Shown: in pieces, positions 1 to 34,001 of the stretch
Position numbering within the stretch: the stretch's first letter is position 1
Layout of the letters: every line of letters begins with the position of its first letter
Source of the DNA: Ruminococcus sp.
GTDB taxonomy: Bacteria; Bacillota; Clostridia; Oscillospirales; Ruminococcaceae
Assembly (NCBI GenBank): GCA_017523285.1
Contig: JAFWWU010000065.1
Location: 1 to 34,140, forward strand
Direction: 5' to 3'
DNA length: 34,140 bases
The notes under the pieces: generated by a model
Told to the model about the DNA's origin: nothing
What the model saw: the letters and a program-made list of their open reading frames with translations, nothing else
Databases searched by the model: none
Position numbers and translations under genes: made by a program

Positions 1-141
1 ACTTTTATTACAGCTTTCTGATTATATACACTGGTTTAACTATTCTCGTATTCATGGTTCTCTTGGTTACTTAACTCCTGTTGAGTTTAAGACTCTCTCT
101 TTGGCTAAATAATTTTTGTACAATTTTGGGTTGACAATCCA
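1..141 (+). mobile_element. Right end of an IS3-family insertion sequence (partial)
   Basis: The segment holds the last codons of a transposase and a terminal inverted repeat ending in ...GACAATCCA at 141, giving the 5'-TG...CA-3' ends usual for IS3-family elements. The reverse complement of 105-141 aligns without gaps to 34002-34038, the left end of another IS copy at the far side of the window. I count about 25 matches in 37, starting TGGAT in both. The boundary at 141 rests on this comparison. The rest of the element lies outside the window. Confidence 0.82.
2..112 (+). CDS. IS3-family transposase OrfB, C-terminal 36 residues (partial)
   Basis: Frame 2 reads through to a TAA at 110-112. 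It gives HWFNYSRIHGSLGYLTPVEF, the typical end of the IS3-family DDE integrase-type transposase, just after the catalytic Glu (Y/FN..R.H..LGY.TP.E). OrfB is normally made as an OrfAB fusion by -1 frameshifting and cuts and joins the IS ends. Only the C-terminus is present, so activity cannot be judged. The 3' end overlaps the stop codon of the convergent dockerin reading frame (105-107). Confidence 0.88.
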   Translation, partial: LLLQLSDYIHWFNYSRIHGSLGYLTPVEFKTLSLAK

Positions 142-971
142 AGTTGCCTTTTCATCAGACACAGATCGAAAACATCAAGTCTGTCGTCTATACAGAAATT
201 ACCTGCTCTCCAATTGGCAAGGTGAGTGTCTGGAACAGACAACAGCCATTTCTGAAGCAATACTACATCCGATATATTAAATTCACCATCATCATTCACA
301 TCACCGGTTGCTTTATCTGTATTCGTTTTTTGCATCACAGGGACAATCACGCTGTCTTTATATACAGCAAAAGACAGTGTATCTCCCTCGGTTGCTCCTG
401 ATATGTTCATTCCAAGAGTACTTCCAAAGCTATCAAATGAATAATAATACTTGTTTTCGTTCTCATCACTCAGATGAAATGTGAAAACAGCATAAACAGG
501 TGGCATCGTCATTCCACTATAGGTTTTGTCAACAACCTGCAAAGATTGAGTTTCCATTAGTTCAGAGCAATTGCCAACGATTTGTAATTCAGTGCTTTGA
601 TCAAGTTCGTAAGTATTTCTTGTGTTTTCATCTAAGGTTGTAACAACATCGCCGGCAGTTACAAAAATATCTCCATATTCCAGATCATTCGGAACATCCC
701 CTTTAAAGTAACTTTTACGATGTTTATAATTTGTTCCTGAAATGTCGTCTGATGGGTAATAGTACTCAAAGATCGGTAATTGCTTCTCGCCATATGTTCC
801 TGTATAAACGAAAAAACATTCAGCGTCAAATATTTCTGTATTGCTTTCAGCTGCTTGAACCTCAAACACAGCATCTTCGGCTACGTTATGTGGAAAGCTG
901 CCGAAACCAATTACACTTGTTAAGGAAATAACTCCTGCTAAAAATTTGTTAAACATCATTGTAAATTTCAT
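105..971 (-). CDS. Secreted dockerin-containing protein with IS-derived C-terminal tail
   Basis: Start chosen at 971, where AAAGGAG lies 7 nt upstream; the longer frame to 995 lacks a ribosome site. A signal peptide (MKFTMMFNKFLAGVISLTSV) is followed by about 185 residues of unrecognised, acidic, probably beta-rich sequence. A type I-like dockerin comes last, with a first calcium loop GDVNDDGEFNISDVVLLQKW and a second, degenerate one around NFCIDDRLDVFDLCLMKRQL. Dockerins bind cohesins in cellulosome-type assemblies, so the protein is probably exported and attached to a scaffold; no cohesin is seen in this window. The last dozen codons (after KRQL) and the stop codon lie inside the IS3-family element, so the native C-terminus has been replaced. 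It follows the sortase gene in the same direction, suggesting co-expression with the LPXTG locus. The function of the N-terminal domain is unknown. Confidence 0.85.
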   Translation of the reverse strand: MKFTMMFNKFLAGVISLTSVIGFGSFPHNVAEDAVFEVQAAESNTEIFDAECFFVYTGTYGEKQLPIFEYYYPSDDISGTNYKHRKSYFKGDVPNDLEYGDIFVTAGDVVTTLDENTRNTYELDQSTELQIVGNCSELMETQSLQVVDKTYSGMTMPPVYAVFTFHLSDENENKYYYSFDSFGSTLGMNISGATEGDTLSFAVYKDSVIVPVMQKTNTDKATGDVNDDGEFNISDVVLLQKWLLSVPDTHLANWRAGNFCIDDRLDVFDLCLMKRQLGLSTQNCTKII

Positions 972-991
972 AATAAGCTCCTTTCGATATA

Positions 992-1504
992 TCATTTATT
1001 TTCTTTGAGGATTCCGACAACTACCTGTCGGTACTCTCCATCGTCGGTACACGATATAACAGTCAGCCTGTCATCACCATAATCGTTAAGAACACCAACG
1101 TTGTGGGGATCAACGATAGCATACTCTGTAACAATATAAATATAGTCGGTTCTTTTTTCATCGGTATCAATCAGATGCATTTCAGCACCGATTTGAATGT
1201 TATCAAGATCATTGAAAATTTCAGCATATATTGTGCTGTTATGTCCTGCAATGCAGTAATTATCATGACCGGGTGAACCCGTTCCCTCAAAATGTCCGGC
1301 TGATACTTGAAGTGCTTTCGAATCAGTTCCCTCAAGGACGGGAACTCTGATATTTAAACTTGGGATTTCAAATATCACATTTTCTTCCAAAAGCTTTTGC
1401 AAATATAGTTCTCGACTGATTCGTTTATATGCGAAAACAGACAATATCAAAGCACCGCAAGTAATCATAATAACGCCGATAATTCGTACTGTTCTTCTTT
1501 TCAT
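992..1504 (-). CDS. Sortase (transpeptidase), probably class D-like
   Basis: This 170-residue protein has one N-terminal membrane anchor (about residues 8-26) and a sortase fold with the catalytic triad visible: His88 in CIAGHNS, Cys152 in TVISCTDDG and Arg159 in EYRQ. Sortases cleave LPXTG signals between Thr and Gly and join the protein to peptidoglycan; the adjacent upstream gene encodes an LPQTG protein, its likely substrate. The frame is open back to 1552, but 1520-1550 is a strong terminator hairpin, so I start at the ATG at 1504 downstream of it. Its ribosome site (GAAGGA directly before ATG) is poorly spaced, so translation may be weak or depend on readthrough. It lies between the LPXTG gene and the dockerin gene. 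The class is an estimate from length and motif style; the sortase call itself is firm. Confidence 0.9.
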   Translation of the reverse strand: MKRRTVRIIGVIMITCGALILSVFAYKRISRELYLQKLLEENVIFEIPSLNIRVPVLEGTDSKALQVSAGHFEGTGSPGHDNYCIAGHNSTIYAEIFNDLDNIQIGAEMHLIDTDEKRTDYIYIVTEYAIVDPHNVGVLNDYGDDRLTVISCTDDGEYRQVVVGILKENK

Positions 1505-1515
1505 ATCCTTCAATA

Positions 1516-1550
1516 GCGAAAAGAGCGCTACTATCGAGAGTAGCGCTCTC
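1516..1550 (-). terminator. Rho-independent terminator between LPXTG gene and sortase gene
   Basis: On the minus strand a perfect 11-bp stem (AGAGCGCTACT / AGTAGCGCTCT) with a 6-nt loop is followed by a short T run. It begins about ten bases after the LPXTG stop codon and ends just before the sortase start, so it probably lets the abundant surface protein be made in excess of the sortase. Confidence 0.8.
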
Positions 1551-1560
1551 ATTTTATCAA

Positions 1561-3726
1561 TTATTCATCTTTTTTTCTTGTCTTAACAAGAATTGCAGCT
1601 CCACTTAATGTCATAAGAGATGCAAGCCCTGCAACAACTTTATAGATGGAAGAGTAACCTGTCTGAGGAAGTGTTTCTTCGTTATTCTCAGTCTGAGCTG
1701 TAGTTGTAGTAGTTGTTGTTGTGCTATCCTGTGGAGTAGTAACATAAGTGTACTTCGGAGCATCATCGCTTGTATCTTCAAGATAAATTGTACATGACAG
1801 ATTTGTTCCGTTGACGAATTCCTCTAAACTAAATCCGGATACTCCGTACTGATCTCTATTTTTACCATAGAAGAAACGATAATTCTCCGGCAGATTTGTA
1901 ATCCTGATAGCATATGTAATGTTGCCGTTGTAGCTGTCTGGTCTGTCAAAAGAATACTGGAGATTCTCAATATACATTTCTTCAGTTTCCGATGTATTCC
2001 ATGCAGCTACAATATCGCCATTCTGAATATTAAACAATTCACAGTTCAAGCCTGCAATCTTCTGATTTCTGGCAATATCCATAACGTTGAGCTTCAATGA
2101 ATACGTGCCTTCCAGAGGAATGTCATTTAAGTCAGCAGGAGCAGAAGTGGTAGTAGTTGTTGTTGTTGTCTGAGTTTCTGTCTTAGAAGTATCGCTCGTT
2201 GTAACAATATTGCCATTCTCGTCAATAAAATTTCCGTTTTCATCTGTAACTGTGGTAGTTGACGGTGTAGCCTCAGCTATTGTAGTAGTTGTAACTATTG
2301 TAGTATTACCCTGCGGAGTGGATACATAAGTGTACTTCGGAGCGTCATCACTTGTATCTTCGAGGTATGCAACACAGTTCAAGTCAGTGCCGTTTGCAAA
2401 TTCTTCCAGACCAAAGCCGGAAATTCCGTAAAAGTCTCTGCTCTTTCCATAGAAAAATCTATAATTCTCTGGCAGATTTGTAATTCTGATGGCATATGTA
2501 ATGTTGCCGTTATAGCTGTCAGGTCTGTCAAAGGAATACTGAAGATTTTCAATATACATTTCTTCAGTTTCTGATGTGTTCCATGCAGCAACAACATCAC
2601 CACTCTGGATATTGAATAGTTCACAGTTCAATCCTGCGATCTTCTCATTTCTGACGATATCCATAACACTGAGCTTCAGCGAATATGTTCCTTCCAGAGG
2701 AATGTCATTCAAATCAGCCGGACCAGAAGTAGTAGTTGTTATTATTGTCGGAGGCTCTGTTTTGGATGTTTCACTTGTTGTAACAATATTGCCGTTCTCA
2801 TCAATGAAATTTCCGTTTTCATCTGTAACTGTGGTAGTTAGTGGTGACGGTTCAGCTATTGTTGTAGTGGTTGTAACTGTTGTGATATTAGCCTGAGGAG
2901 TAGACACATAAGTGTATTTCGGAGCATCTTCGCTTGTATCTTCAAGATAAACTGTACACGACAGATTTGTTCCGTTGACGAACTCCTCTAAACTAAATCC
3001 GGATACTCCGTATTGATCTCTGGTTTTACCATAGAAGAAACGATAATTTTCAGGCAGATTTGTAATTCTGATGGCATATGTAATGTTACCATTATAGCTG
3101 TCTGGTCTGTCAAAGGAATACTGAAGATTTTCAATATACATTTCCTCTGTTTCAGATGTGTTCCATGCAGCAACAATATCACCTGTCTGGATATTGAATA
3201 GTTCACAGTCCAAGCCTACAATCCTTTCTTTTCTAACAATATCCATAACATTGAGGTTTAATGAATATGTACCCTCCAGAGGTGTTGTGTTTTCGAGAAT
3301 TTCTTCCTCATCAAGTTCGATTGATACTTTAACTTCGCCATCAAGATAACCTGAGATTCCACTTTCAACACGCTTACTTGAATTGAAATTGTAGCCATCG
3401 GGTAATTCGTCCACTACTACACGATATATATAATCGTGCCAATTATCGCTAAATGATTCTGTGATGAAAGGATTGGCGATGCTTGTGTTCCATTCAGAAA
3501 CAACAACCCCATCTCCAACATATACATAATGTTCGTCATCTGTCCACGCAATCGCTTGCTGAATCAGTTTGGCATTAACATTTTCAACGTACTTCTCTGA
3601 TTCCTCTGTAACAAAACAGATGTTAAAGGAATAAGAAGATTCTTCTGCTGATGCCGCAATACTGCAAAGAGGTGTTAATGATATTGCTGCCGAAAGCAAC
3701 AACGACAGGATTCTCGTTTTTTTCAT
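1561..3726 (-). CDS. LPXTG wall-anchored surface protein with three 130-residue repeats
   Basis: The protein has 721 residues. A signal peptide (1-27) is followed by an N-terminal domain (about 32-140), then three near-identical 130-residue domains at 149-278, 343-472 and 537-666. Each begins PLEGTYSL and contains NGNITYAIRITNLPENYRFF. Two 64-residue Thr-rich linkers carrying DENGNFIDENGN separate them. The C-terminus is a full sorting signal: LPQTG at 686-690, a hydrophobic stretch and the tail KTRKKDE. The G.xCELFN...NL..Y pattern suggests SpaA/CnaB-like prealbumin folds, an inference. The start is supported by AAAGGAGG upstream. The neighbouring sortase probably anchors it to peptidoglycan. 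Its N-terminal domain and repeats recur in the ectodomain of the divergent sensor protein (4553-5851). A promoter resembling those of ECF sigma factors lies at 3810-3841. The ligand is unknown; glycan binding, adhesion or a stalk role are all possible. Confidence 0.9.
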   Translation of the reverse strand: MKKTRILSLLLSAAISLTPLCSIAASAEESSYSFNICFVTEESEKYVENVNAKLIQQAIAWTDDEHYVYVGDGVVVSEWNTSIANPFITESFSDNWHDYIYRVVVDELPDGYNFNSSKRVESGISGYLDGEVKVSIELDEEEILENTTPLEGTYSLNLNVMDIVRKERIVGLDCELFNIQTGDIVAAWNTSETEEMYIENLQYSFDRPDSYNGNITYAIRITNLPENYRFFYGKTRDQYGVSGFSLEEFVNGTNLSCTVYLEDTSEDAPKYTYVSTPQANITTVTTTTTIAEPSPLTTTVTDENGNFIDENGNIVTTSETSKTEPPTIITTTTSGPADLNDIPLEGTYSLKLSVMDIVRNEKIAGLNCELFNIQSGDVVAAWNTSETEEMYIENLQYSFDRPDSYNGNITYAIRITNLPENYRFFYGKSRDFYGISGFGLEEFANGTDLNCVAYLEDTSDDAPKYTYVSTPQGNTTIVTTTTIAEATPSTTTVTDENGNFIDENGNIVTTSDTSKTETQTTTTTTTTSAPADLNDIPLEGTYSLKLNVMDIARNQKIAGLNCELFNIQNGDIVAAWNTSETEEMYIENLQYSFDRPDSYNGNITYAIRITNLPENYRFFYGKNRDQYGVSGFSLEEFVNGTNLSCTIYLEDTSDDAPKYTYVTTPQDSTTTTTTTTAQTENNEETLPQTGYSSIYKVVAGLASLMTLSGAAILVKTRKKDE
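1729..3282 (-). repeat. Three tandem 390-bp domain repeats in a 582-bp period
   Basis: Coding repeats at 2893-3282, 2311-2700 and 1729-2118 are separated by 192-bp Thr-linker segments. Long stretches are nearly identical at DNA level, for example those encoding NGNITYAIRITNLPENYRFF. A fourth related copy lies on the opposite strand at 5471-5848 in the sensor gene. Tandem copies of this sort can gain or lose units by recombination. Confidence 0.9.
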
Positions 3727-3809: not shown

Positions 3810-3841
3810 TTAGTCGTATTTTTATCATCGAGAATCGCAGT
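3810..3841 (-). promoter_or_regulatory. Putative ECF sigma promoter for the LPXTG gene
   Basis: On the minus strand ACTGCGATTCT (3831-3841) is followed after exactly 14 nt by CGACTAA (3810-3816). The same pair with the same spacing occurs on the plus strand before the sigma gene (3925-3956). A CGAC-type -10 is characteristic of ECF promoters. Transcription would start near 3803, about 75 nt before the LPXTG start codon. Confidence 0.75.
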
Positions 3842-3856
3842 TTTTTTAAAAAAATT

Positions 3857-3885
3857 TTGAAGAAAATCAGAAAATGTGCTATAAT
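3857..3885 (+). promoter_or_regulatory. Housekeeping (sigma-A) promoter for the sigma/sensor operon
   Basis: TTGAAG (3857-3862), a 17-nt spacer and TATAAT (3880-3885) preceded by TGC form a good sigma-A promoter with an AT-rich upstream tract. It would give basal expression of the sigma factor, upstream of the ECF-type promoter at 3925. Confidence 0.75.
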
Positions 3886-3924
3886 ATAGTTGTAGATGAA
3901 AAAATCGTTTTTTCTTCTCAAATG

Positions 3925-3956
3925 ACTGCGATTCTGACACTTATTTTTTCGACTAA
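3925..3956 (+). promoter_or_regulatory. Putative autoregulatory ECF promoter for the sigma/sensor operon
   Basis: ACTGCGATTCT (3925-3935), 14 nt, then CGACTAA (3950-3956): the same elements and spacing as the divergent copy at 3810-3841. Together the two copies form an 11-bp inverted repeat flanking the sigma-A promoter. Transcription would start near 3963, about 50 nt before the sigma start codon. Confidence 0.75.
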
Positions 3957-4011: not shown

Positions 4012-4566
4012 ATGGATAACGGTGCCAATTGTTATAGCCGTTTTCTCTCAGGAGATAAAGATGCGATTGAGGAAATAATCCGTGATTACAAGGACGGACT
4101 TGTTTTTTACCTAAACAATATAGTCGGAGATATTCATCATGCAGAAGAACTTACGATAGATACCTTTGTTAAGTTGTTTTATGAGAAACCAAAATTCAAA
4201 GGAAAGTGTTCTTTTAAAACATGGCTTTTTTCTATTGGAAGATATACTGCCCTTGACTATATAAGGAAAAACAAGCGAGTAACCGAAATTTCTATCGATG
4301 ACGCACTTGATATCTCTGATGGAGAAAACCTGGAACGTGAATACATAAAAAACAAAGAGCGAATCAGACTGCGGCAAACTATCAAAAAACTGAAACCTGA
4401 ATATAGCCAAGTTTTGTATCTTATATTCTTTGAAGACTTCAATACCAGCGAGACTGCTGAAATTATGGGCAAATCGAACAAGCAAATAATTGATCTTTTG
4501 TACCGTGCCAAGGCTGCGCTAAAAAAGGAAATTGAAAAGGAGGGATATACGTATGATGGACTATAA
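4012..4566 (+). CDS. ECF-type RNA polymerase sigma factor
   Basis: The 184-residue length is usual for ECF sigma factors. Region 2 (about 20-88) includes HAEELTIDTFVKLF and FKTWLFSIGRYTALDYIRKNK-type sequence, which melts and contacts the -10. Region 4 (about 120-172) includes the helix-turn-helix LIFFEDFNTSETAEIMGKSN that contacts the -35. A strong ribosome site (AAAGGAGAG) precedes ATG. The downstream membrane gene overlaps it by 14 nt, the usual arrangement of a sigma factor with its anti-sigma partner. Likely targets are the two matching promoters at 3810-3841 and 3925-3956, so it would activate itself and the LPXTG gene. The ECF subgroup could not be assigned. The sigma call is secure; the target list is inference from the shared motif. 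Confidence 0.92.
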   Translation: MDNGANCYSRFLSGDKDAIEEIIRDYKDGLVFYLNNIVGDIHHAEELTIDTFVKLFYEKPKFKGKCSFKTWLFSIGRYTALDYIRKNKRVTEISIDDALDISDGENLEREYIKNKERIRLRQTIKKLKPEYSQVLYLIFFEDFNTSETAEIMGKSNKQIIDLLYRAKAALKKEIEKEGYTYDGL

Positions 4567-5851
4567 AAAAATGGCTGAGATAGTTGCCAGAGAAGTTGAA
4601 ATAAAGGAACAGAGAAAAATGAAACGCATAGCCACCATAAAACGTGTTTCCTTAACCGTTTCAGGGTTGTGTGCTGCTATAATAGTTTGCCTTGGGGTAT
4701 GGAATAATGATAAATTAAAAAACGTATTAAACAGCGATCTGCTGGTACAGCCCACCGACAATGTTATTATCGACTCTACAGCTGTTCCTGATGCAGATGT
4801 GAATGATACATCTTCTGTTCCTAAAGTTACCGCAACAGATGCAGATACCAATAATATAATTACTGTTACAACTGAAGCAACAAATCAATCTGCAACCAAT
4901 AATCCTGTCACTCAGCCTGTAACAACAGGTGAGAATAATGTAACGACGGAATCGCCTGAAACATTGCCGTCTGTTACAGAAACAGTAGTAACTCCGGTAT
5001 CTCCGGTTACCACAACTGCACCCAAACAAACTACCCCACCTAAGATTTCATCAACTGTAGATCCACCGCCTGACCGACCTCCGACAACCACCACTGTTAC
5101 AGGCAACACAGATCCGAATTTCTATGGATTTTATATCAGTTTTCTTGATGATAACAGTTTCGAAGCTGTAAATTCAATTAATGCCAGATTGATACAACAA
5201 AAGATTGAATGGATAGATGATGTAACATATGCAGATGTCGGTGATGGTATAGTAGTTGCAGAATGGAATTCGTCTGATTTCACCTCCTATTATGCGAATT
5301 TTATCAAGGAAGAAACGGAATACAGATACATAGTGGTTGTCGATACACTTCCATCTGAGTATAGTTTTAGTGGTCAAAATTTCATTGAATACAATATCTC
5401 CGGCTATTTTGAAGGATATAGAAACATTGATATACTGTTATCTAAGGAACAAGAACCTGTAAATAGTATACCATTGGAAGGTACATACTCATTGAGATTA
5501 AAAGTATTGGATATTATCAGCAATGTGTCTATTCAGAATCTTGAATGTGAACTGTATTGTATTCAGACAAAAGAAGTTGTTGCATCTTGGAACACATCAA
5601 CAACTGAGGAATTGTATATAGAAAACCTTCGGTACTCATTCGATAGTCCTGACAGCTACAACGGCAATATTACATACGCCATCAGAATTACAAATCTGCC
5701 AGAGAACTATAGATTTTTCTATGGTAAGAGCAGGGAATTTTACGGAATTTCCGGCTTTGGTCTTGAAGAGTTTTCAAATGGTACTGACCTGATTTGTGTT
5801 GCATATCTCGAAGACACAAGTGAAGAAGCACCAAAATATAACTATAACTGA
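4553..5851 (+). CDS. Membrane sensor / probable anti-sigma factor sharing ectodomains with the LPXTG protein
   Basis: The protein has 432 residues, starting at 4553 where AAGGAGG lies 9 nt upstream. A short charged cytoplasmic segment (1-31), one membrane span (about 32-50) and a Thr/Pro-rich linker (about 65-185) lead to two outer domains. Domain A (about 189-298, with LIQQKIEW and DGIVVAEWN) matches the N-terminal domain of the LPXTG protein (LIQQAIAW, DGVVVSEWN). Domain B (307-432) matches its repeats, with SYNGNITYAIRITNLPENYR identical. The position behind the sigma gene and the topology fit a transmembrane anti-sigma factor, analogous in layout to clostridial RsgI proteins that sense polysaccharides. 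No zinc-binding anti-sigma motif is visible, so the cytoplasmic part would be a minimal sigma-binding helix. It has no LPXTG signal. The anti-sigma role is inferred; a co-expressed surface protein without regulatory function is the alternative. Confidence 0.8.
   Translation: MMDYKKMAEIVAREVEIKEQRKMKRIATIKRVSLTVSGLCAAIIVCLGVWNNDKLKNVLNSDLLVQPTDNVIIDSTAVPDADVNDTSSVPKVTATDADTNNIITVTTEATNQSATNNPVTQPVTTGENNVTTESPETLPSVTETVVTPVSPVTTTAPKQTTPPKISSTVDPPPDRPPTTTTVTGNTDPNFYGFYISFLDDNSFEAVNSINARLIQQKIEWIDDVTYADVGDGIVVAEWNSSDFTSYYANFIKEETEYRYIVVVDTLPSEYSFSGQNFIEYNISGYFEGYRNIDILLSKEQEPVNSIPLEGTYSLRLKVLDIISNVSIQNLECELYCIQTKEVVASWNTSTTEELYIENLRYSFDSPDSYNGNITYAIRITNLPENYRFFYGKSREFYGISGFGLEEFSNGTDLICVAYLEDTSEEAPKYNYN
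5471..5848 (+). repeat. Fourth copy of the surface-domain repeat, inverted relative to 1729-3282
   Basis: This part of the sensor gene encodes the same domain as the three repeats in the LPXTG gene, and the DNA is very similar (for example catcagaattacaaatctg occurs in both). Because the genes are divergent, the copies are inverted relative to each other across the promoter region. Confidence 0.85.
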
Positions 5852-5944: not shown

Positions 5945-5988
5945 CAAAGAAAACCGCTAAGAATACCTATTCTTAGCGGTTTTCTTTG
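5945..5988. terminator. Bidirectional terminator palindrome next to tRNA remnant
   Basis: A perfect 21-bp inverted repeat with a 2-nt centre; the GC-rich core CCGCTAAGAATA is followed by TTTTCTTT in both directions. It probably terminated the minus-strand tRNA whose 3' end lies at 5987-6024. Confidence 0.75.
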
Positions 5989-6024
5989 GAGCTTGTGACA
6001 GGATTCGAACCTGCGACCATGAGC
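5987..6024 (-). pseudogene. tRNA 3' remnant (T arm, acceptor strand, CCA), candidate attachment site
   Basis: On the minus strand the sequence reads a variable loop TGGTC, a T arm GCAGG-TTCGAAT-CCTGT, the acceptor strand CACAAGC, a discriminator T and CCA, followed by a terminator. Upstream (6025 onward) neither a matching anticodon stem nor the partner acceptor strand GCTTGTG is found, so only the 3' part of a tRNA is present. It ends about 55 bp from a serine recombinase gene, as expected for an integration junction of element 1. The tRNA identity cannot be assigned because the anticodon is missing. Confidence 0.7.
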
Positions 6025-6078
6025 TGTCTATAAAGCGACGTTTGATCTGTTTTAAAAAATGGAGCGTTTACTCCTATT

Positions 6079-7704
6079 CTACGCCGCATTCTTCGATTCT
6101 GCGGCGTTTTCAAGTTTACCGATAAAGCGGTAGTAAATCTCAACCTGCTGAAATACCCTGCCGTCCTCTGCTATTTCCTTGTGATGAACTACGATTTTAT
6201 CAATCAGTTCGTTCAGAATAGCGGCATCCAGCTGGTCAATCACAGTGTACTTTTTAATGAGATTCACGAACTTGTCCGTTGCATCGCTCTCTGCTTTCAG
6301 CTGTTCAATCCGCTGTCGCAGGTCGGGGAGTGCTTCCTTGATTTCCCTCTGCTCAGATTCATACTGTGCCGACATCGCTTCATAGCGGCTTTCGGAAATT
6401 TTTCCCAAGGCACTGTCCTCGTACAGCTTACACAGAATCTTGTCAATCTCCTCAAAACGGCGTTGCTTCTTCTCGTACTCGGCTTGCAGTTTCTTTGCTT
6501 CCTTTGCGGAATCCGTCTGGAACTTCTTTTCCAGAATCGACTTGAATTGCTGTGCGTTATTACGGTAGTTCCATAATACTGTTCTCAGATTTATCAGCAC
6601 CAAGTTGTATACAGTGTCGTAGTTGATATAATGTGATGGACAGTATTCCTTGCCATGTGTTCTGTACATCCAACAATCATAAGCTCCATAATAGGTTCCG
6701 TCTTTACGCTGTTTCTGACCATAGGTGAGACAGTGTCCACAATCTGCACAGTAGATGAGTCCTGCGAAAATCTGTAATTCTCCTGTCTTTGCAGGTCGGC
6801 GTTTGGAACTCATAACCTTGTGTGCTGTATCCCACAGTTCCTTTGAGATAATCGGCTCGTGTGTATTCTCTGCAATAATCCATTCCTCACGAGGATTCTT
6901 TACTTTGGTTTTGCTTTTCATGGACTTGCATTTCTGCTTTCCATAGATAAGCATTCCAAGATACACCTCATTATTCAGAATTGCTCTGACGGAGGTGACA
7001 TGCCAGTCGAATTCCTTTCGCCAGTAATCTGCCTTGAAGTAGTCAGGATTGTTCTGGTTAAAGTAAGTTATCGGATTAAGCACTTTTTCTTCTCTGAATA
7101 TTCTGGTGATTTTGTTGTAGCCTGCACCCTCTGCTGTCAACCTGAATATTCTTCTTACAACCTCTGCTGCAGGCTCATCAATCACAAGATGATGTCTGTC
7201 ATTTGGATCCAGCTTGTAGCCAAACGGCGGTTTAGAACCGATATACTGCCCAGCTTTAGCTTTGGCTTTCTTGGCGGCTTTGGTCTTTTTCGATACATCA
7301 CGGGCGTACATTTCGTTCATCACATTTCTCATAGGGAACATCAGATCATCTTCGTTGATCATGGAATCGTAGTGATCATCCGCCGCAATGAACCGCACGT
7401 TCTGCTCCTTGAAATGTTCCACCTGCAGTCCGACTTCCACATAGTTTCGACCGAATCGGGACAGGTCTTTTACAATCACAAGGTTGATTTTCCCAGCATG
7501 AATATCCGAGAGCATCCGCTGAAATGCGGGTCTGTTAAAGTTTGTACCGCTGTAACCGTCATCACAATAGAATTCATAGCTTGTGATATCATGACTCTGA
7601 CAGTACTGTTCCAATAAAATCTTCTGCGTTTCGATGGATACGCTTCCGCCGAAGCTGCCGTCATCCACCGAGAGTCTGCAATATAATGCTGCGTGTTTCT
7701 GCAT
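6079..7704 (-). CDS. Large serine recombinase (element 1 integrase/excisionase)
   Basis: The protein has 541 residues from the ATG at 7704, where AAAGGAG lies 7 nt upstream; the longer frame to 7803 has no ribosome site. The N-terminal resolvase domain has YCRLS with catalytic Ser12, then DDGYSGTNFNRPAFQRML and [10 protein letters not shown], the usual large serine recombinase motifs. A recombinase domain follows (KPPFGYKLDP to about 300), then a zinc ribbon (CADCGHCL ... DC ... YC) and a C-terminal coiled coil (about 400-500). It should catalyse integration and excision through a Ser-DNA link with a 2-bp crossover. The gene lies at the element edge next to the tRNA remnant. It appears intact. 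It is clearly different from the second recombinase at 30851-32463, so the two elements are not recent copies. Confidence 0.92.
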   Translation of the reverse strand: MQKHAALYCRLSVDDGSFGGSVSIETQKILLEQYCQSHDITSYEFYCDDGYSGTNFNRPAFQRMLSDIHAGKINLVIVKDLSRFGRNYVEVGLQVEHFKEQNVRFIAADDHYDSMINEDDLMFPMRNVMNEMYARDVSKKTKAAKKAKAKAGQYIGSKPPFGYKLDPNDRHHLVIDEPAAEVVRRIFRLTAEGAGYNKITRIFREEKVLNPITYFNQNNPDYFKADYWRKEFDWHVTSVRAILNNEVYLGMLIYGKQKCKSMKSKTKVKNPREEWIIAENTHEPIISKELWDTAHKVMSSKRRPAKTGELQIFAGLIYCADCGHCLTYGQKQRKDGTYYGAYDCWMYRTHGKEYCPSHYINYDTVYNLVLINLRTVLWNYRNNAQQFKSILEKKFQTDSAKEAKKLQAEYEKKQRRFEEIDKILCKLYEDSALGKISESRYEAMSAQYESEQREIKEALPDLRQRIEQLKAESDATDKFVNLIKKYTVIDQLDAAILNELIDKIVVHHKEIAEDGRVFQQVEIYYRFIGKLENAAESKNAA

Positions 7705-7841
7705 AATCATTCTCCTTTCGGGCAGAGGACACGCATAGCCTTGCACCACCAGTATACCACATCTGTCGGCACAAAGCCAGCTGAATTTGTCCGCTGCTTT
7801 CAACTTTGTGCAACCTCAATAAGCGGTTGCTTGGAATTTAT

Positions 7842-8108
7842 TCATATCGCAGAAGCGTTCTTCCGCTGAATCATTTCTTCGAACTCATCTGACACAGATC
7901 CGATTTCATCTCCCGTTTCCAGTCTGCGGAGCATGAGATTGGAGAGCGATTTTGCAGCATCGGTTTGTTCTTCAAAGACAGACCACACACGATAGGTTAT
8001 ACCATTCAGATAGTGATCATGGTACTGCGCATCGCCCTGATTCTGACACCGTGACGGTTCGAGGGTGTATTCTCTTTTTCTGATTTTTCCAATTGTATTT
8101 CTTTCCAT
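7842..8108 (-). CDS. Small TnpW-like element protein
   Basis: The protein has 88 residues. The central NGITYRVWSVFEEQTDAAKS followed by LSNLMLRR resembles the TnpW-type pattern (I-T-Y-x-V-x-x-x-F ... K-L-x-x-L) found as a small conserved protein beside relaxase and recombinase genes in transposon-like elements of Firmicutes. It lies between relaxase and recombinase, as does the shorter counterpart in element 2 (32555-32737). Its role is not established; position suggests a helper of recombination or its control. The assignment rests on motif shape and synteny and is moderate. Confidence 0.6.
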   Translation of the reverse strand: MERNTIGKIRKREYTLEPSRCQNQGDAQYHDHYLNGITYRVWSVFEEQTDAAKSLSNLMLRRLETGDEIGSVSDEFEEMIQRKNASAI

Positions 8109-8259
8109 AGTCCTCCAGTTCTCCGAACAATGTCGGATTAAATCTTGTTGTTCCTATAAATCTGATACTCATTTTAGATCTTCCTTTCTGCATTATTTTA
8201 GATAGGGTATCGGCGATTGCGATACCCTTTGCTGAGTGGTGAGGGGACGTTTTATCCCC

Positions 8260-9576
8260 TCATCCCATGTGCATCCCCAATGCTTCCTTGCGTCGGATCT
8301 CCTCTGCCAGCACCTTACTGTCACTGTGCAGTTCGATGTCCTCATCCTCTGTCGGCTCATCCATTATCGCAGCCACATCTGCAATGCCAGCGATAAGATC
8401 AAGAGCACCGACTGCGAAATCACAACCCACCTGAGCATTTTCAATTGCGTTCTGTGCTTCCATTCTTCGAGTGATTTCAGCTTGGAGCAGTATTCCTCGT
8501 TCAGCTTCCCAGCCTGTAATGACAGCTTCTCCGATTGGCTGATTAAGCTCGTCAGAGAGTTCGTTGTCTGCTCTGCTGTGATTTGCTGAATGTGTCTGCA
8601 TTCCGATTTCACCTTGTCGAATATTACTTGCTGATTTTCCAAGTGATAATTCATCTGCTCCGCTGTCATAGTCTGACTTGCTTTCTCGCTGACCTGTTCT
8701 ATCGCTTGGGTGAGTAACGTAAGCTGAGCTATCACTGCTCTCCAGTTGCTGTCGAGAACAAATGTCGCCTGTGGTGTGTTCATCGCTTCTTCCAGATTTG
8801 ATTTCGAAACCGATTTCATCTGATCTAATTTTGAATTCATTAAGCATCATCTCCTTACTGTATCTTGGTTCGTGCAGTCTGTTGTCACGGCATCGTTTTC
8901 CATTGGGACAGGTGTAGGTGATATATTTACGAGACTCCTCCCACCTCACGCTATATCCTTTCTGTCGCATTAAGAAACAGAACTGCTTTTGTGTTTTGGC
9001 TGACTTCATAACCTCATCAATCACATTAATGAGATCTATCTTCCAGCTTTCTCCTTTCATGGCACTGCGGTATTCGCCTGTGGTAATTCCGTCCGTTCTC
9101 TGATTAACCACAGGCTTTTCCAATGTCTGTACACCATACTTCCGACAAATTTCATCGGATATATTTCTGATATCATTCAGAGTAAATTTATTTGAATGAT
9201 ATTTCTTTCCTGTGTCAGCGTTTACGGAATTAAAAACAATGTGCGAGTGAATATGCTCTGCATCAATATGAGTTGCAAAAACACACTCGTGTCCCTTGAA
9301 TGCTTTCTCCGCAAACTCCACAGCGATTCTGTGAGCAAGCTCAGGCTGAATTTCATATCCGCTTGGGTGAGACTGCACGAAATGATAGTACTTGATACCT
9401 CCAGTCTTTCCATACATCTCACGGGTATTTTTGAATTCCTGATACACGGTAGGCAGAGAACAGTTGAGTGCTGTGACATATTTCTGATTGTCTGTCTTAT
9501 CATCACGACAGATATATTCAAGCGTTGCTTTACCTCCACCGCCGCCTTTGGTACTTATCGCAGTTACTGTCGCCAT
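8260..9576 (-). CDS. Relaxase (MobA/VirD2-type), element 1
   Basis: The protein has 438 residues. The N-terminus (ISTKGGGGGKATLEYICRDD) contains Tyr21, the probable nicking tyrosine. The metal-binding histidines are in ATHIDAEHIHSHIVFNS (His103, 108, 110, 112), as in the VirD2-type relaxase family. The enzyme nicks at oriT, stays attached to the 5' end and leads the strand into a recipient through a helper's secretion system. The C-terminal third is charged and overlaps a second gene in another frame (8364-8840). The start overlaps the stop of the MobC-like gene by one base (TAATG), implying translational coupling. It appears intact, unlike its relative at 32821-34001. Confidence 0.9.
   Translation of the reverse strand: MATVTAISTKGGGGGKATLEYICRDDKTDNQKYVTALNCSLPTVYQEFKNTREMYGKTGGIKYYHFVQSHPSGYEIQPELAHRIAVEFAEKAFKGHECVFATHIDAEHIHSHIVFNSVNADTGKKYHSNKFTLNDIRNISDEICRKYGVQTLEKPVVNQRTDGITTGEYRSAMKGESWKIDLINVIDEVMKSAKTQKQFCFLMRQKGYSVRWEESRKYITYTCPNGKRCRDNRLHEPRYSKEMMLNEFKIRSDEIGFEIKSGRSDEHTTGDICSRQQLESSDSSAYVTHPSDRTGQRESKSDYDSGADELSLGKSASNIRQGEIGMQTHSANHSRADNELSDELNQPIGEAVITGWEAERGILLQAEITRRMEAQNAIENAQVGCDFAVGALDLIAGIADVAAIMDEPTEDEDIELHSDSKVLAEEIRRKEALGMHMG
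8364..8840 (-). CDS. Nested MobB-like coiled-coil, tail-anchored protein inside relaxase gene (element 1)
   Basis: The 158-residue product is read in a different frame on the same strand, entirely within the relaxase gene. Its ATG has AAGGAG 10 nt upstream. It has a long heptad-rich helical region (including TAEQTTNSLTSLISQSEKLS) and ends in a hydrophobic segment (VVISQSVLLILSLALQMWL) followed by a single Arg, so a C-terminal membrane anchor. The counterpart in element 2 (32925-33407) is conserved in protein, in the ribosome site and in its spacing, which argues for a real gene. In RSF1010 the membrane-associated MobB is likewise encoded out of frame inside mobA and stabilises the relaxosome; a similar job is inferred here. 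No sequence relation to RSF1010 MobB is claimed. Confidence 0.78.
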   Translation of the reverse strand: MNSKLDQMKSVSKSNLEEAMNTPQATFVLDSNWRAVIAQLTLLTQAIEQVSEKASQTMTAEQMNYHLENQQVIFDKVKSECRHIQQITAEQTTNSLTSLISQSEKLSLQAGKLNEEYCSKLKSLEEWKHRTQLKMLRWVVISQSVLLILSLALQMWLR

Positions 9577-30850: not shown

Positions 30851-32466
<1,616 letters not shown>

Positions 32467-32554
32467 TTACCTTCCTTTCCGTCCTTGCGGACTATGCCAA
32501 ACCGATTGTGCTACCAACAAGGATACCAGAACCGATCTGACAAGTCCAGTGCTT

Positions 32555-32737
32555 TTACGAAACTTTTTGCATTTCCCGTTCCATGAGGTATCTGAGCTTA
32601 TCTTCAGCGGTTTCCTTTGCCTGTGCATCGAACACATCATGCACATAGTAGATCGTGCCTTCGATTTTCACATAATGTGAATTTTCCTTGTGCTCTCGTT
32701 TCTGAAATTCATAAGCCTTAAGATTCGTTTTCTTCAA
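32555..32737 (-). CDS. Small TnpW-like element protein (TTG start)
   Basis: The protein has 60 residues. The pattern IEGTIYYVHDVFDAQAKETA followed by EDKLRYLMEREM fits the TnpW-type family (I-x-Y-x-V-x-x-x-F ... T-A-x-D-K-L-x-x-L). It starts at TTG, with GAAGGAG 11 nt upstream; an in-frame stop just before rules out a longer form. The same upstream site also precedes an ATG in another frame that gives only eight residues (MPIEENES). Located between relaxase and recombinase as in element 1. Role unknown. Confidence 0.6.
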   Translation of the reverse strand: MKKTNLKAYEFQKREHKENSHYVKIEGTIYYVHDVFDAQAKETAEDKLRYLMEREMQKVS

Positions 32738-32820
32738 TCGGCATCACACTCCTTCTTCTGATTCCTGTTTGACTTGTGTGATACATTTTGATCCCTCCTT
32801 CATCGATTTTTAAATGGGTA

Positions 32821-34001
32821 TCATCCCAAGTGCATCCCCAACGCTTCCTTGCGTCGGATTTCTTCCGCCAGCACCTTGCTGTCACTGTGACGTTCGATGT
32901 CCTCATCTTCTGACGGCTCATCCATTATCGCAGCCACATCTGCAATGCCAGCGACAAGATCAAGAGCACCGACTGAGAAATCACAATCGCTCTGAGCATT
33001 TTCAATTGCGTTCTGTGCTTCCAATCTTCTAATTCTCTCCGCTGTGAGGAGAATTCCTCGTTCAGCTTCCCAGCCTGAAATGACAGTTTCTCCGATTGGC
33101 TGATTAAGCTCGTCAGGGAGTTTGTTGTCTGCTCTGCTGTAAATTTCTGAATTCTCCTGCATTCGTCCCCCACCTGATCGAACAACACTTTCTGATTCTG
33201 TAAGTGCATTTCGATTCCAGTTTTCGTCATCATCTCGCCCTGTAACTCCAACAGTTTCTCCTGAACCTCGCAAGATCTTTTCAGTAGGCTGATCACCGCT
33301 ATCCAGTTTCGGTTGTCCACCGCCACCATGGGCATAGTTTCCTCCGCCGCCTGTAGGTCGGATTTGTTGCGTTCCATCAAGGCATTCACGTCTAATTTTG
33401 AACTCATATTCCATCAACTCCTTTGAAAATTTCTCGCCGTGCAATTTAGCACAGCGGCATCTTCTTCCGTTCGGACAAGTATAAGTGATATATTTTCGTG
33501 AGTCCTCCCACCTCACGCCGTAGCCCAACTGCTTCATCATAAAGACAAATTGCTTCTTGGATTTAGCTTGCTTCATGACTTCGGCAACAGCATTCATCAG
33601 TTGAAATTTCCAGCTCTCGCCACGCACTGCCGAGCGATATTCACGGTCGGAGAGCACATCTTTTTTCTTCTGCTGTTGCCTATTCAGCACCGCCACGCCA
33701 TACCTCTGACAGATTTCATCGGATAAATCCATCAGCTCCTGCACGGTGTTTCCGTTGGAATGATACTTTCTGCCGTCCTCGAAACTGACGGAGTTGAACA
33801 CAATGTGCGAGTGGATATGCTCACGGTCAATATGCGTTGCCACAACGCATTCATATTTCCCGAATGCTTTCTCTGCAAGCTCCACTGCAATCTGGTGAGC
33901 AAGCTCAGGGGAAGTGTGATCGCCTTTCGGAAAACTCTGCACCAGATGATAATACATCCGACCACTGTTCTTGTGATAGGTATTCTTGGTTGCAATCATT
34001 T
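32821..34001 (-). pseudogene. Relaxase (MobA/VirD2-type) truncated at its N-terminus by an IS, element 2
   Basis: The remaining 392 codons from an internal ATG (33999) align with the element 1 relaxase from about its residue 48. The histidine motif ATHIDREHIHSHIVFNS is kept, and so is the C-terminal GWEAERGILL ... EEIRRKEALGMH. About 47 N-terminal residues, including the segment with the probable nicking tyrosine, are missing because an IS3-family element begins at 34002. The nested MobB-like frame is intact. The enzyme should be unable to nick. Confidence 0.88.
32925..33407 (-). CDS. Nested MobB-like coiled-coil, tail-anchored protein inside relaxase gene (element 2)
   Basis: The 160-residue product is in a different frame inside the relaxase gene. 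AAGGAG lies 10 nt before its ATG, exactly as in element 1. The N-terminal half differs from the element 1 protein, but TAEQTTNSLTSLISQSEKLS and the C-terminal anchor (VISQSVLLILSLALQMWLR) are shared. The IS that truncates the relaxase leaves this gene whole. Probably a membrane-bound relaxosome partner; function inferred from analogy to RSF1010 MobB. Confidence 0.75.
   Translation of the reverse strand: MSSKLDVNALMERNKSDLQAAEETMPMVAVDNRNWIAVISLLKRSCEVQEKLLELQGEMMTKTGIEMHLQNQKVLFDQVGDECRRIQKFTAEQTTNSLTSLISQSEKLSFQAGKLNEEFSSQRRELEDWKHRTQLKMLRAIVISQSVLLILSLALQMWLR

Follow-up and report, generated by a model that had tools for sequence, protein, structure and literature searches.

We analyzed a 34,140-nucleotide (nt) stretch of Ruminococcus sp. 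DNA (assembly GCA_017523285.1, contig JAFWWU010000065.1; the whole stretch is called the window below) in which the genes for an extracytoplasmic function (ECF) sigma factor and a membrane-bound sensor lie divergent to a gene for an LPXTG-type wall protein. This locus very probably works as an ECF sigma switch that is complete in itself and governs one cell-surface operon, most likely in response to a ligand common to the sensor and the wall protein. The promoters of the switch, their conservation, a code that relates sigma factor residues to promoter bases, and a domain common to sensor and wall protein are supported by sequence comparisons; we infer inhibition of the sigma factor by the sensor, its release by ligand, and the transcript boundaries. 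From left to right, the locus consists of a dockerin gene, a sortase gene, and the LPXTG gene (all on the minus strand), a minus-strand promoter motif, a sigma-A-like promoter, a plus-strand copy of the motif, the sigma gene, and the sensor gene (Table 1).

Divergent promoter pairs at sigma factor loci

The motif ACTGCGATTCT-N14-CGACTAA has one exact match per strand in the window, at 3810-3841 (minus) and 3925-3956 (plus), and the two copies are identical in the 11-mer, the 14-nt spacing, and the CGACTAA box, exactly as an earlier note on this DNA had described. For the full motif with up to 3 mismatches, 0.05 matches per window are expected by chance. The copies also face the genes that the note named: the end of the minus copy is 84 nt ahead of the ATG of the wall-protein gene, and the -10 box of the plus copy starts 62 nt ahead of the ATG of the sigma gene. 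The sigma-A promoter that had been placed between them is found as TTGAAG-17-TATAAT, which taken alone is at chance level (1 found versus 1.0 in shuffles).

In the genome from which the window derives (a 2.84-Mb assembly, 97.5% complete), TGCGATTCT-N13-15-CGACTA matched twice, compared to 0 matches for a reversed control. With up to 3 mismatches over 18 positions there were 6 matches, counting the window pair, and 6 in the control, while the core motif TGCGATT-N16-CGACTAA had 2 exact matches, 0 at one mismatch, and 6 at two (control, 33). Because near matches are not above the reversed control, the window pair stands alone in its genome, and a larger regulon within this genome was rejected. 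The genome scan for a regulon that the earlier note had called for recovered the window pair and no further sites above control, and the predicted regulon in this genome appears to be these two promoters alone.

We compared these promoters with those of relatives of the sigma factor, using the best 80 of at least 574 confirmed candidates and loci of further genomes of the genus (loci and genomes are designated L and G, respectively). Related loci are present in Ruminococcus flavefaciens FD-1 and YAD2003. A search that assumed no letters covered the 115 sigma genes with an upstream region of 350 nt or more and asked for two 7+7 boxes with the same letters, one on each strand, within 600 nt. It found such inverted pairs at 13 genes including that of the window, 12 of ECF type and 1 of sigma-A type (L126). 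In mononucleotide shuffles, 7 of 3,450 had any pair. Of 82 cases in an earlier pair search, 9 had 0.5 mismatch or less, and the remaining 73 all had 3 or more. Upstream of many relatives, we observed the same two-box layout with changed letters, and the box letters vary among loci yet agree between both copies of each locus. TGCGATT/CGACTAA pairs are present in the window and in L069 and L040, which are related to each other, while both sides carry TGCGATT/TTACTAA in L186 and TTCGATT/CGACTAA in L187. The pair is TGCGACG/CGTCTAA in L075, TGAGAGT/CGTTTAA in L021, and TTAGAGA/CGACTAA in the first system of L098, and TGAGACA is paired with CGACTAA in L014, with CGACTTA in the second system of L069, with CGTCTAA in the second system of L098, and with TGTCTAA in L091, which is the same place as L189. 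A requirement for CG at the start of the -10 box was dropped, as it missed L186 and L189, whose pairs were found by reading the intergenic DNA and then again by the letter-free search. The 11 bases that the earlier note gave as the shared unit are identical between copies in the window, L017/L075, and L021 and differ at the remaining pair loci, so that the unit common to every pair locus narrows to the 7-base -35 core and the -10 box.

Across 11 pair loci, codes compared over 14 bases have a mean of 3.6 differences, and 0 of 200,000 reassignments matched, a permutation that is biased because most of its 11 pairs were found by seeking identity. The letter-free search above and a genus-wide search for the core motif are fairer tests. 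In 125 genomes of the genus, the window's own included, TGCGATT-N16-CGACTAA has 8 exact sites (reversed control, 3), which form one divergent pair in each of 4 genomes, 117 or 138 nt apart start to start, and a sigma gene adjoins the pair in all 4 (window, G019, G074, and G124). All 12 ECF-type pairs have a TATAAT between their copies that faces the sigma gene, in a scan of the sigma-facing strand only and without a shuffled control, and this recurrence supports the proposed sigma-A promoter. When second copies were sought anywhere in a locus (up to 3 mismatches over 18 positions, 59 promoters), 6 were found in 0.896 Mb of own loci, weakly in excess of the 109 in 51.8 Mb after loci were swapped. 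By eye, the divergent gene begins like that of a secreted protein in 11 of the 12 ECF-type pairs, several of these proteins having a dockerin end.

Two other elements were seen near these promoters. L186 to L189 have a similar hairpin (approximately TATCC-4 nt-GGATA, mostly flanked by TTCG/CGAA) by eye in the 5' leader of the presumed target gene; an Rfam scan of these four loci matched only a tRNA and a pemK RNA, leaving the leader hairpin unmatched. In addition, GCATCTTCAGCACAAGCTTTGTGCGGTGTTGCC is present upstream of the sigma genes in L187 and L188, with the L188 copy facing an inverted counterpart, and looks like a small mobile repeat inserted near promoters.

Sigma residues and promoter bases

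Promoters were called by position weights seeded with boxes from the same data, without use of the sigma residues, which gave a promoter for 106 of 123 sigma genes versus 5 of 123 shuffled upstream regions; the 17 genes without a called promoter were left out of the covariation analysis. The spacer between the 7-base boxes is 15 nt in 66 promoters, 16 nt in 39, and 17 nt in 1. To measure covariation, we computed mutual information for every pairing of a sigma residue with a box position. For the -35 box, residue 165 goes with position 2 (R with G in 87/87, N with T in 9/10, and Q with A in 4/4), residue 161 with position 3 (N with A in 53/56, D with C in 26/27, Y with C in 11/11, and T with T in 6/6), and residue 160 with position 6 (E with G in 49/51, R with C in 18/18, T with C in 15/15, and I with T in 4/5). 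For the -10 box, residue 78 goes with position 3 (F, Y, or H with A in 26/26 and N with T in 72/80) and residue 85 with position 1 (R with C in 84/86 and K with A or T in 17/19). The pattern is kept when sequences are grouped into 54 clusters at 70% identity, for example, R165 with G in 41/41, N161 with A in 34/36, and D161 with C in 9/9.

The specificity residues of the window's sigma factor are Y78, D82, R85, I160, D161, and R165, and both motif copies have the bases A, C, T, C, and G that correspond to Y78, R85, I160, D161, and R165, respectively. The L187 sigma factor has N165, and both of its copies read TTCGATT, with the T that the code demands; in L186, N82 in place of D occurs together with TT in place of CG. 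Residues 160, 161, and 165 align with R, S, and R of chain 6in7_B. In ECF factors, such specificity residues fall in the region 4.2 recognition helix and in region 2.3/2.4, and the R-G, N-A, Q-A, and D-C pairs make chemical sense. An autoregulatory two-box promoter that is read by regions 2 and 4 of the sigma factor itself is thus strongly supported by these comparisons. Recurrence of the pair, genus-wide pairing, placement of TATAAT, and this covariation all point to the reading of the earlier note, that the copies are promoters of the adjacent ECF sigma factor.

A domain common to the sensor and the wall protein

Sensor residues 181 to 431 align with wall-protein residues 22 to 273 at 56% identity, and the last domain of the sensor is 72 to 78% identical to two further copies in the wall protein. 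A profile of this common domain matched in 9 of 125 genomes of the genus. The sensor bears the domain at five sigma loci (window, L186, L187, L188, and L189), and at all five the divergent protein does too; L191, L193, and L194 have the domain and no sigma gene of the family within the stretch fetched. L193 (3896-5825) encodes a domain protein that looks wall anchored beside a sortase 54% identical to that of the window, a second wall-protein/sortase pair. SpaA matched weakly in 3 of 20 copies of the domain (best E, 0.0041), the window's sensor matched no family, and a search for related solved structures gave one chance-level chain only.

We compared 85 sensor ectodomains with 888 neighboring proteins from 80 loci by BLASTP. 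At E of ≤1e-30, 5 of 85 sensors match a protein of their own locus, versus 6 of 6,715 cross-locus pairs; three of these six join mirroring loci (L091, L098, and L134 to L104), and the other three are matches of 28 to 29% identity to one L070 protein. Among the five own-locus matches, L104 and L108 have two other types of mirrored domain without significant similarity to that of the window, and therefore mirroring of a sensor by a neighboring secreted protein has recurred.

An open reading frame (ORF) follows 87 of 89 sigma genes, with a hydrophobic segment in 86 of the 87 (the L074 ORF, of 67 amino acids [aa], is dubious), and its overlap with or adjacency to the sigma gene is near constant in the family. 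Ahead of the one membrane segment, the sensor family has a conserved charged tail, MKxYxxxAxxVxxRxDxxxxxKKxR. Pfam finds a dockerin in 13 of the 80 sensors scanned (of 87; the 7 left out are under 200 aa or have masked letters), which suggests that these sensors dock onto scaffold proteins; the sensors of L077, L090, L110, and L143 end in a dockerin by eye. Anti-sigma families, RsgI_N included, matched 0 of the 80. In the genus, RsgI_N has one match per genome in 19 of 100 genomes, above the curated cutoff in 5, and one match below the cutoff in the window's own genome. At E of ≤1e-25, the sigma family is present in 78 of 100 genomes, with at least 21 members in one; up to 34 candidates were scored per genome, so high counts may be low.

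Table 1. Coordinates of the features of the locus, with the evidence for each
Feature	Position	Strand	Evidence
ECF-type promoter facing the wall-protein gene (-35 core TGCGATT, N16, -10 CGACTAA)	3810..3841	-	Motif match, genus-wide pairs, covariation
ECF-type promoter facing the sigma/sensor operon (-35 core TGCGATT, N16, -10 CGACTAA)	3925..3956	+	Motif match, genus-wide pairs, covariation
Sigma-A-like basal promoter (TTGAAG-17-TATAAT, TG-extended) facing the sigma operon	3857..3885	+	Location between the two motif copies; TATAAT recurrence
ECF sigma factor, 184 aa, sigma regions 2 and 4	4012..4566	+	Pfam/NCBIfam matches
Single-pass membrane sensor, putative anti-sigma factor, 432 aa, 14-nt overlap with sigma gene	4553..5851	+	Gene order, hydropathy
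Predicted transmembrane segment of sensor, aa 32-50, after a cytoplasmic tail of ~31 aa	4646..4702	+	Hydropathy
Sensor ectodomain D1+D2, homologous to wall-protein domains	5102..5848	+	Sequence alignment
LPXTG wall protein, 721 aa, LPQTG at aa 686	1561..3726	-	Pfam, motif
Wall-protein D1+D2 copy, ~56% identity to sensor ectodomain	2908..3651	-	Alignment
Second D2 copy of wall protein, 78% identity to sensor D2	2317..2709	-	Alignment
Third D2 copy of wall protein, 72% identity to sensor D2	1735..2127	-	Alignment
Sortase gene, 8 nt past wall gene, presumed cotranscribed	992..1552	-	Pfam, spacing
Dockerin protein gene, signal-peptide-like start by eye, 4-nt overlap with sortase gene, presumed cotranscribed	105..995	-	Pfam, spacing

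The sigma factor matches PF04542 (1e-11) and PF08281 (2.7e-8), with no match for region 3 in its 184 aa, and in NCBIfam it is above the cutoff for the ECF superfamily, its best single match being the SigM subfamily, under that subfamily's cutoff. The wall protein has a Gram_pos_anchor match (3.1e-6), the LPXTG motif, a hydrophobic and charged tail, and a signal peptide by eye, and the adjacent sortase matches PF04203 (3.7e-22), together the features of an LPXTG protein with its sortase. From the spacing of the genes, we presume that those for the sortase and the dockerin protein belong to the wall-protein operon. Directly past the wall gene and within the first codons of the sortase frame is a perfect 11-bp hairpin (1522-1549), which may change the ratio of their products; the true sortase start may also be further inside the frame. 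An Rfam scan of the first 9 kb of the window found no RNA element.

Elsewhere in the window, a stretch at 5986-6025 resembles by eye the 3' end of a tRNA, with no whole tRNA found there, directly ahead of genes for a large serine recombinase and a relaxase (6079-9576). This is perhaps the edge of an integrated mobile element that adjoins the sigma locus. Another recombinase/relaxase pair is located at 31189-33999, and positions 1-112, at the end of the contig, resemble the 3' end of an IS3-type transposase gene.

Proposed switch and its relation to known systems

In the switch that we propose, the sigma-A promoter at 3857-3885 would supply basal amounts of the sigma factor and the sensor, and the membrane protein with its tail most likely keeps the sigma factor inactive, as gene order and the logic of such families suggest. 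Binding of a ligand at the ectodomain would release the sigma factor, and RNA polymerase with the freed sigma factor would start at both TGCGATT-N16-CGACTAA copies, the plus copy giving feedback on the sigma/sensor operon and the minus copy driving the wall protein and probably also the sortase and dockerin protein. The feedback loop that the earlier note predicted has promoters facing both operons, including that of the wall protein, but it is unlikely to be purely positive, because the sigma factor and its putative inhibitor are made from one transcript; feedback would raise capacity and then damp itself, with no runaway. The ligand sensed is most likely one bound by the wall protein, as in clostridial RsgI proteins with carbohydrate-binding modules, because the sensor ectodomain and the wall protein are built from the same domains.

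Several observations weigh against parts of this proposal. The exact inverted pair is absent at 102 of the 115 sigma genes, so the pair is no rule of the sigma family, and in L021 the divergent side is without a clear gene for a secreted protein. In the residue-base code, -35 position 4 has its best residue at 147 and position 7 at 56, position 5 of either box is weak, and some pair loci break the code, with N78 beside A in L014, L186, and the second system of L069 and K85 beside C in the second system of L098. On a tree built without the specificity columns, there were 4 to 6 independent pairs per test and none reached a P value of 0.05, since independent changes are too few; in these tests the base follows the residue or stays the same (no base difference in approximately 3 of 5 pairs for 161 N/A and 2.5 of 6 for 85 R/C), and the opposite direction is practically never seen. 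The window's sensor matches no family in Pfam or NCBIfam, those of anti-sigma factors included. Class I anti-sigma factors are defined by an N-terminal four-helix anti-sigma domain, according to the accessible text of PMC7406223, and the approximately 31 aa ahead of the membrane segment of the sensor are shorter than such a domain. As for domain sharing, L190 and L192 have the domain in a downstream neighbor and not in the sensor; BLASTP finds no sharing in either system of L069, in L075, or in the first system of L098; and at E of ≤1e-3 the comparison is less specific, with 12 of 85 own-locus and 413 of 6,715 cross-locus matches, many to dockerins.

The pair was first seen as an 11-bp inverted repeat, as would suit a separate dimeric activator or repressor in place of sigma promoters. 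That is extremely improbable, as what is conserved is two 7-base boxes 15 to 17 nt apart, with unlike flanking sequence in the two copies of L069/L041 and of L187; the adjacent sigma factor has residues that covary with the box bases; and the spacing of the copies varies, being approximately 83 nt from start to start in L091 but approximately 255 nt for the second L098 system. It is also very improbable that the sigma-side copy is the sole promoter and the other a relic of local duplication. The 11 bases common to the window copies are what a recent duplication would leave, but the DNA between the boxes is unlike in the two copies, and the same departures are found on both sides in L186 (TTACTAA), L187 (TTCGATT), and L189 (TGTCTAA).

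Two further alternatives accept the promoters. The membrane protein could be a coactivator, could stabilize the sigma factor, or could be a surface protein whose only link to the switch is a common operon, as the missing anti-sigma domain and the short tail would allow; we consider this unlikely, given that its gene nearly always overlaps or adjoins the sigma gene and that a conserved charged tail precedes one membrane segment, which is the layout of SigI/RsgI-type pairs in the accessible text of PMC4711584. The signal read by the common domain could instead be the amount, assembly, or release of the wall protein, with no outside ligand, for homeostatic control of surface display. The same domain in sensor and target at 5 of 5 loci with a domain-bearing sensor, the further sensor/neighbor pairs with other domains (L104 and L108), and the dockerin, a docking module, in 13 of 80 sensors all fit this, but a common ligand explains the sharing of domains equally well, and we regard the homeostatic reading as possible without favoring it. 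A broader and tentative proposal is that a large set of orthogonal ECF sigma/sensor pairs controls surface and cellulosome proteins in Ruminococcus, each sensor carrying the module of the displayed protein or a dockerin. Each switch would read the degree to which its controlled protein has filled a surface site (ligand, cohesin, or wall slot), a mirror sensing that would keep surface display in homeostasis.

Ruminococcus is a key fiber degrader of rumen and gut, and a family of such compact switches is a candidate answer to how it selects its surface and cellulosome proteins. The residue-to-base code may allow regulons to be read from sequence, and the locus-specific codes offer naturally distinct promoter/sigma pairs. 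Our literature search, which left subscription journals mostly outside, found nothing on Ruminococcus ECF sigma factors with dockerins and, on Ruminococcus ECF sigma/anti-sigma pairs, just a review with a single mention of R. albus, in a table entry for ECF262.

ECF factors commonly use -10 boxes of the CGAC/CGTC type. Like the Firmicute SigM, SigW, SigX, and SigV pairs, the system described here has a match to the ECF superfamily, a -10 box of this type, and a putatively autoregulated operon; unlike them, it has -35 boxes of the TGCGATT and TGAGAGA types with locus-specific letters, a sensor without a known family, and a predicted regulon of two promoters in its own genome. For ECF factors in general, a few residue-base pairs account for promoter specificity (Todor et al. 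2020, as summarized in the accessible part of PMC11588781), and the code here, in one genus-level family and with divergent pairs, is an application of that work rather than a new principle.

As described in the accessible text of PMC4711584, Clostridium (Acetivibrio) thermocellum and relatives have several paralogous, autoregulated operons of SigI and the membrane sensor RsgI, the RsgI ectodomains are of kinds found in surface enzymes, targets are among dockerin and scaffold genes, and SigI has no sigma4. The Ruminococcus family resembles these in its paralogous sigma/sensor operons and in a sensor ectodomain related to domains of the presumed target, the control of the neighbor being read from the promoter pair. 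In contrast to SigI, the window's sigma factor has region 4 and is of true ECF type; RsgI_N matches neither the window's sensor nor any of the 80 sensors; and in place of the carbohydrate-binding modules of RsgI, Ruminococcus sensors carry dockerins or the target's own domain. What is new here, judged by alignment, is a sensor ectodomain built from the domains of the wall protein. The presumed targets, an anchored wall protein and dockerin proteins, are like the cellulosomal and sortase-anchored surface proteins of Ruminococcus that figure in a 2024 genome survey, the accessible part of which limits RsgI suites to Acetivibrio-type cellulosome producers (PMC11557425). Because of that limit, the ECF sigma/sensor family is a plausible Ruminococcus counterpart of clostridial SigI/RsgI and a candidate for the missing regulator of its surface and cellulosome proteins.
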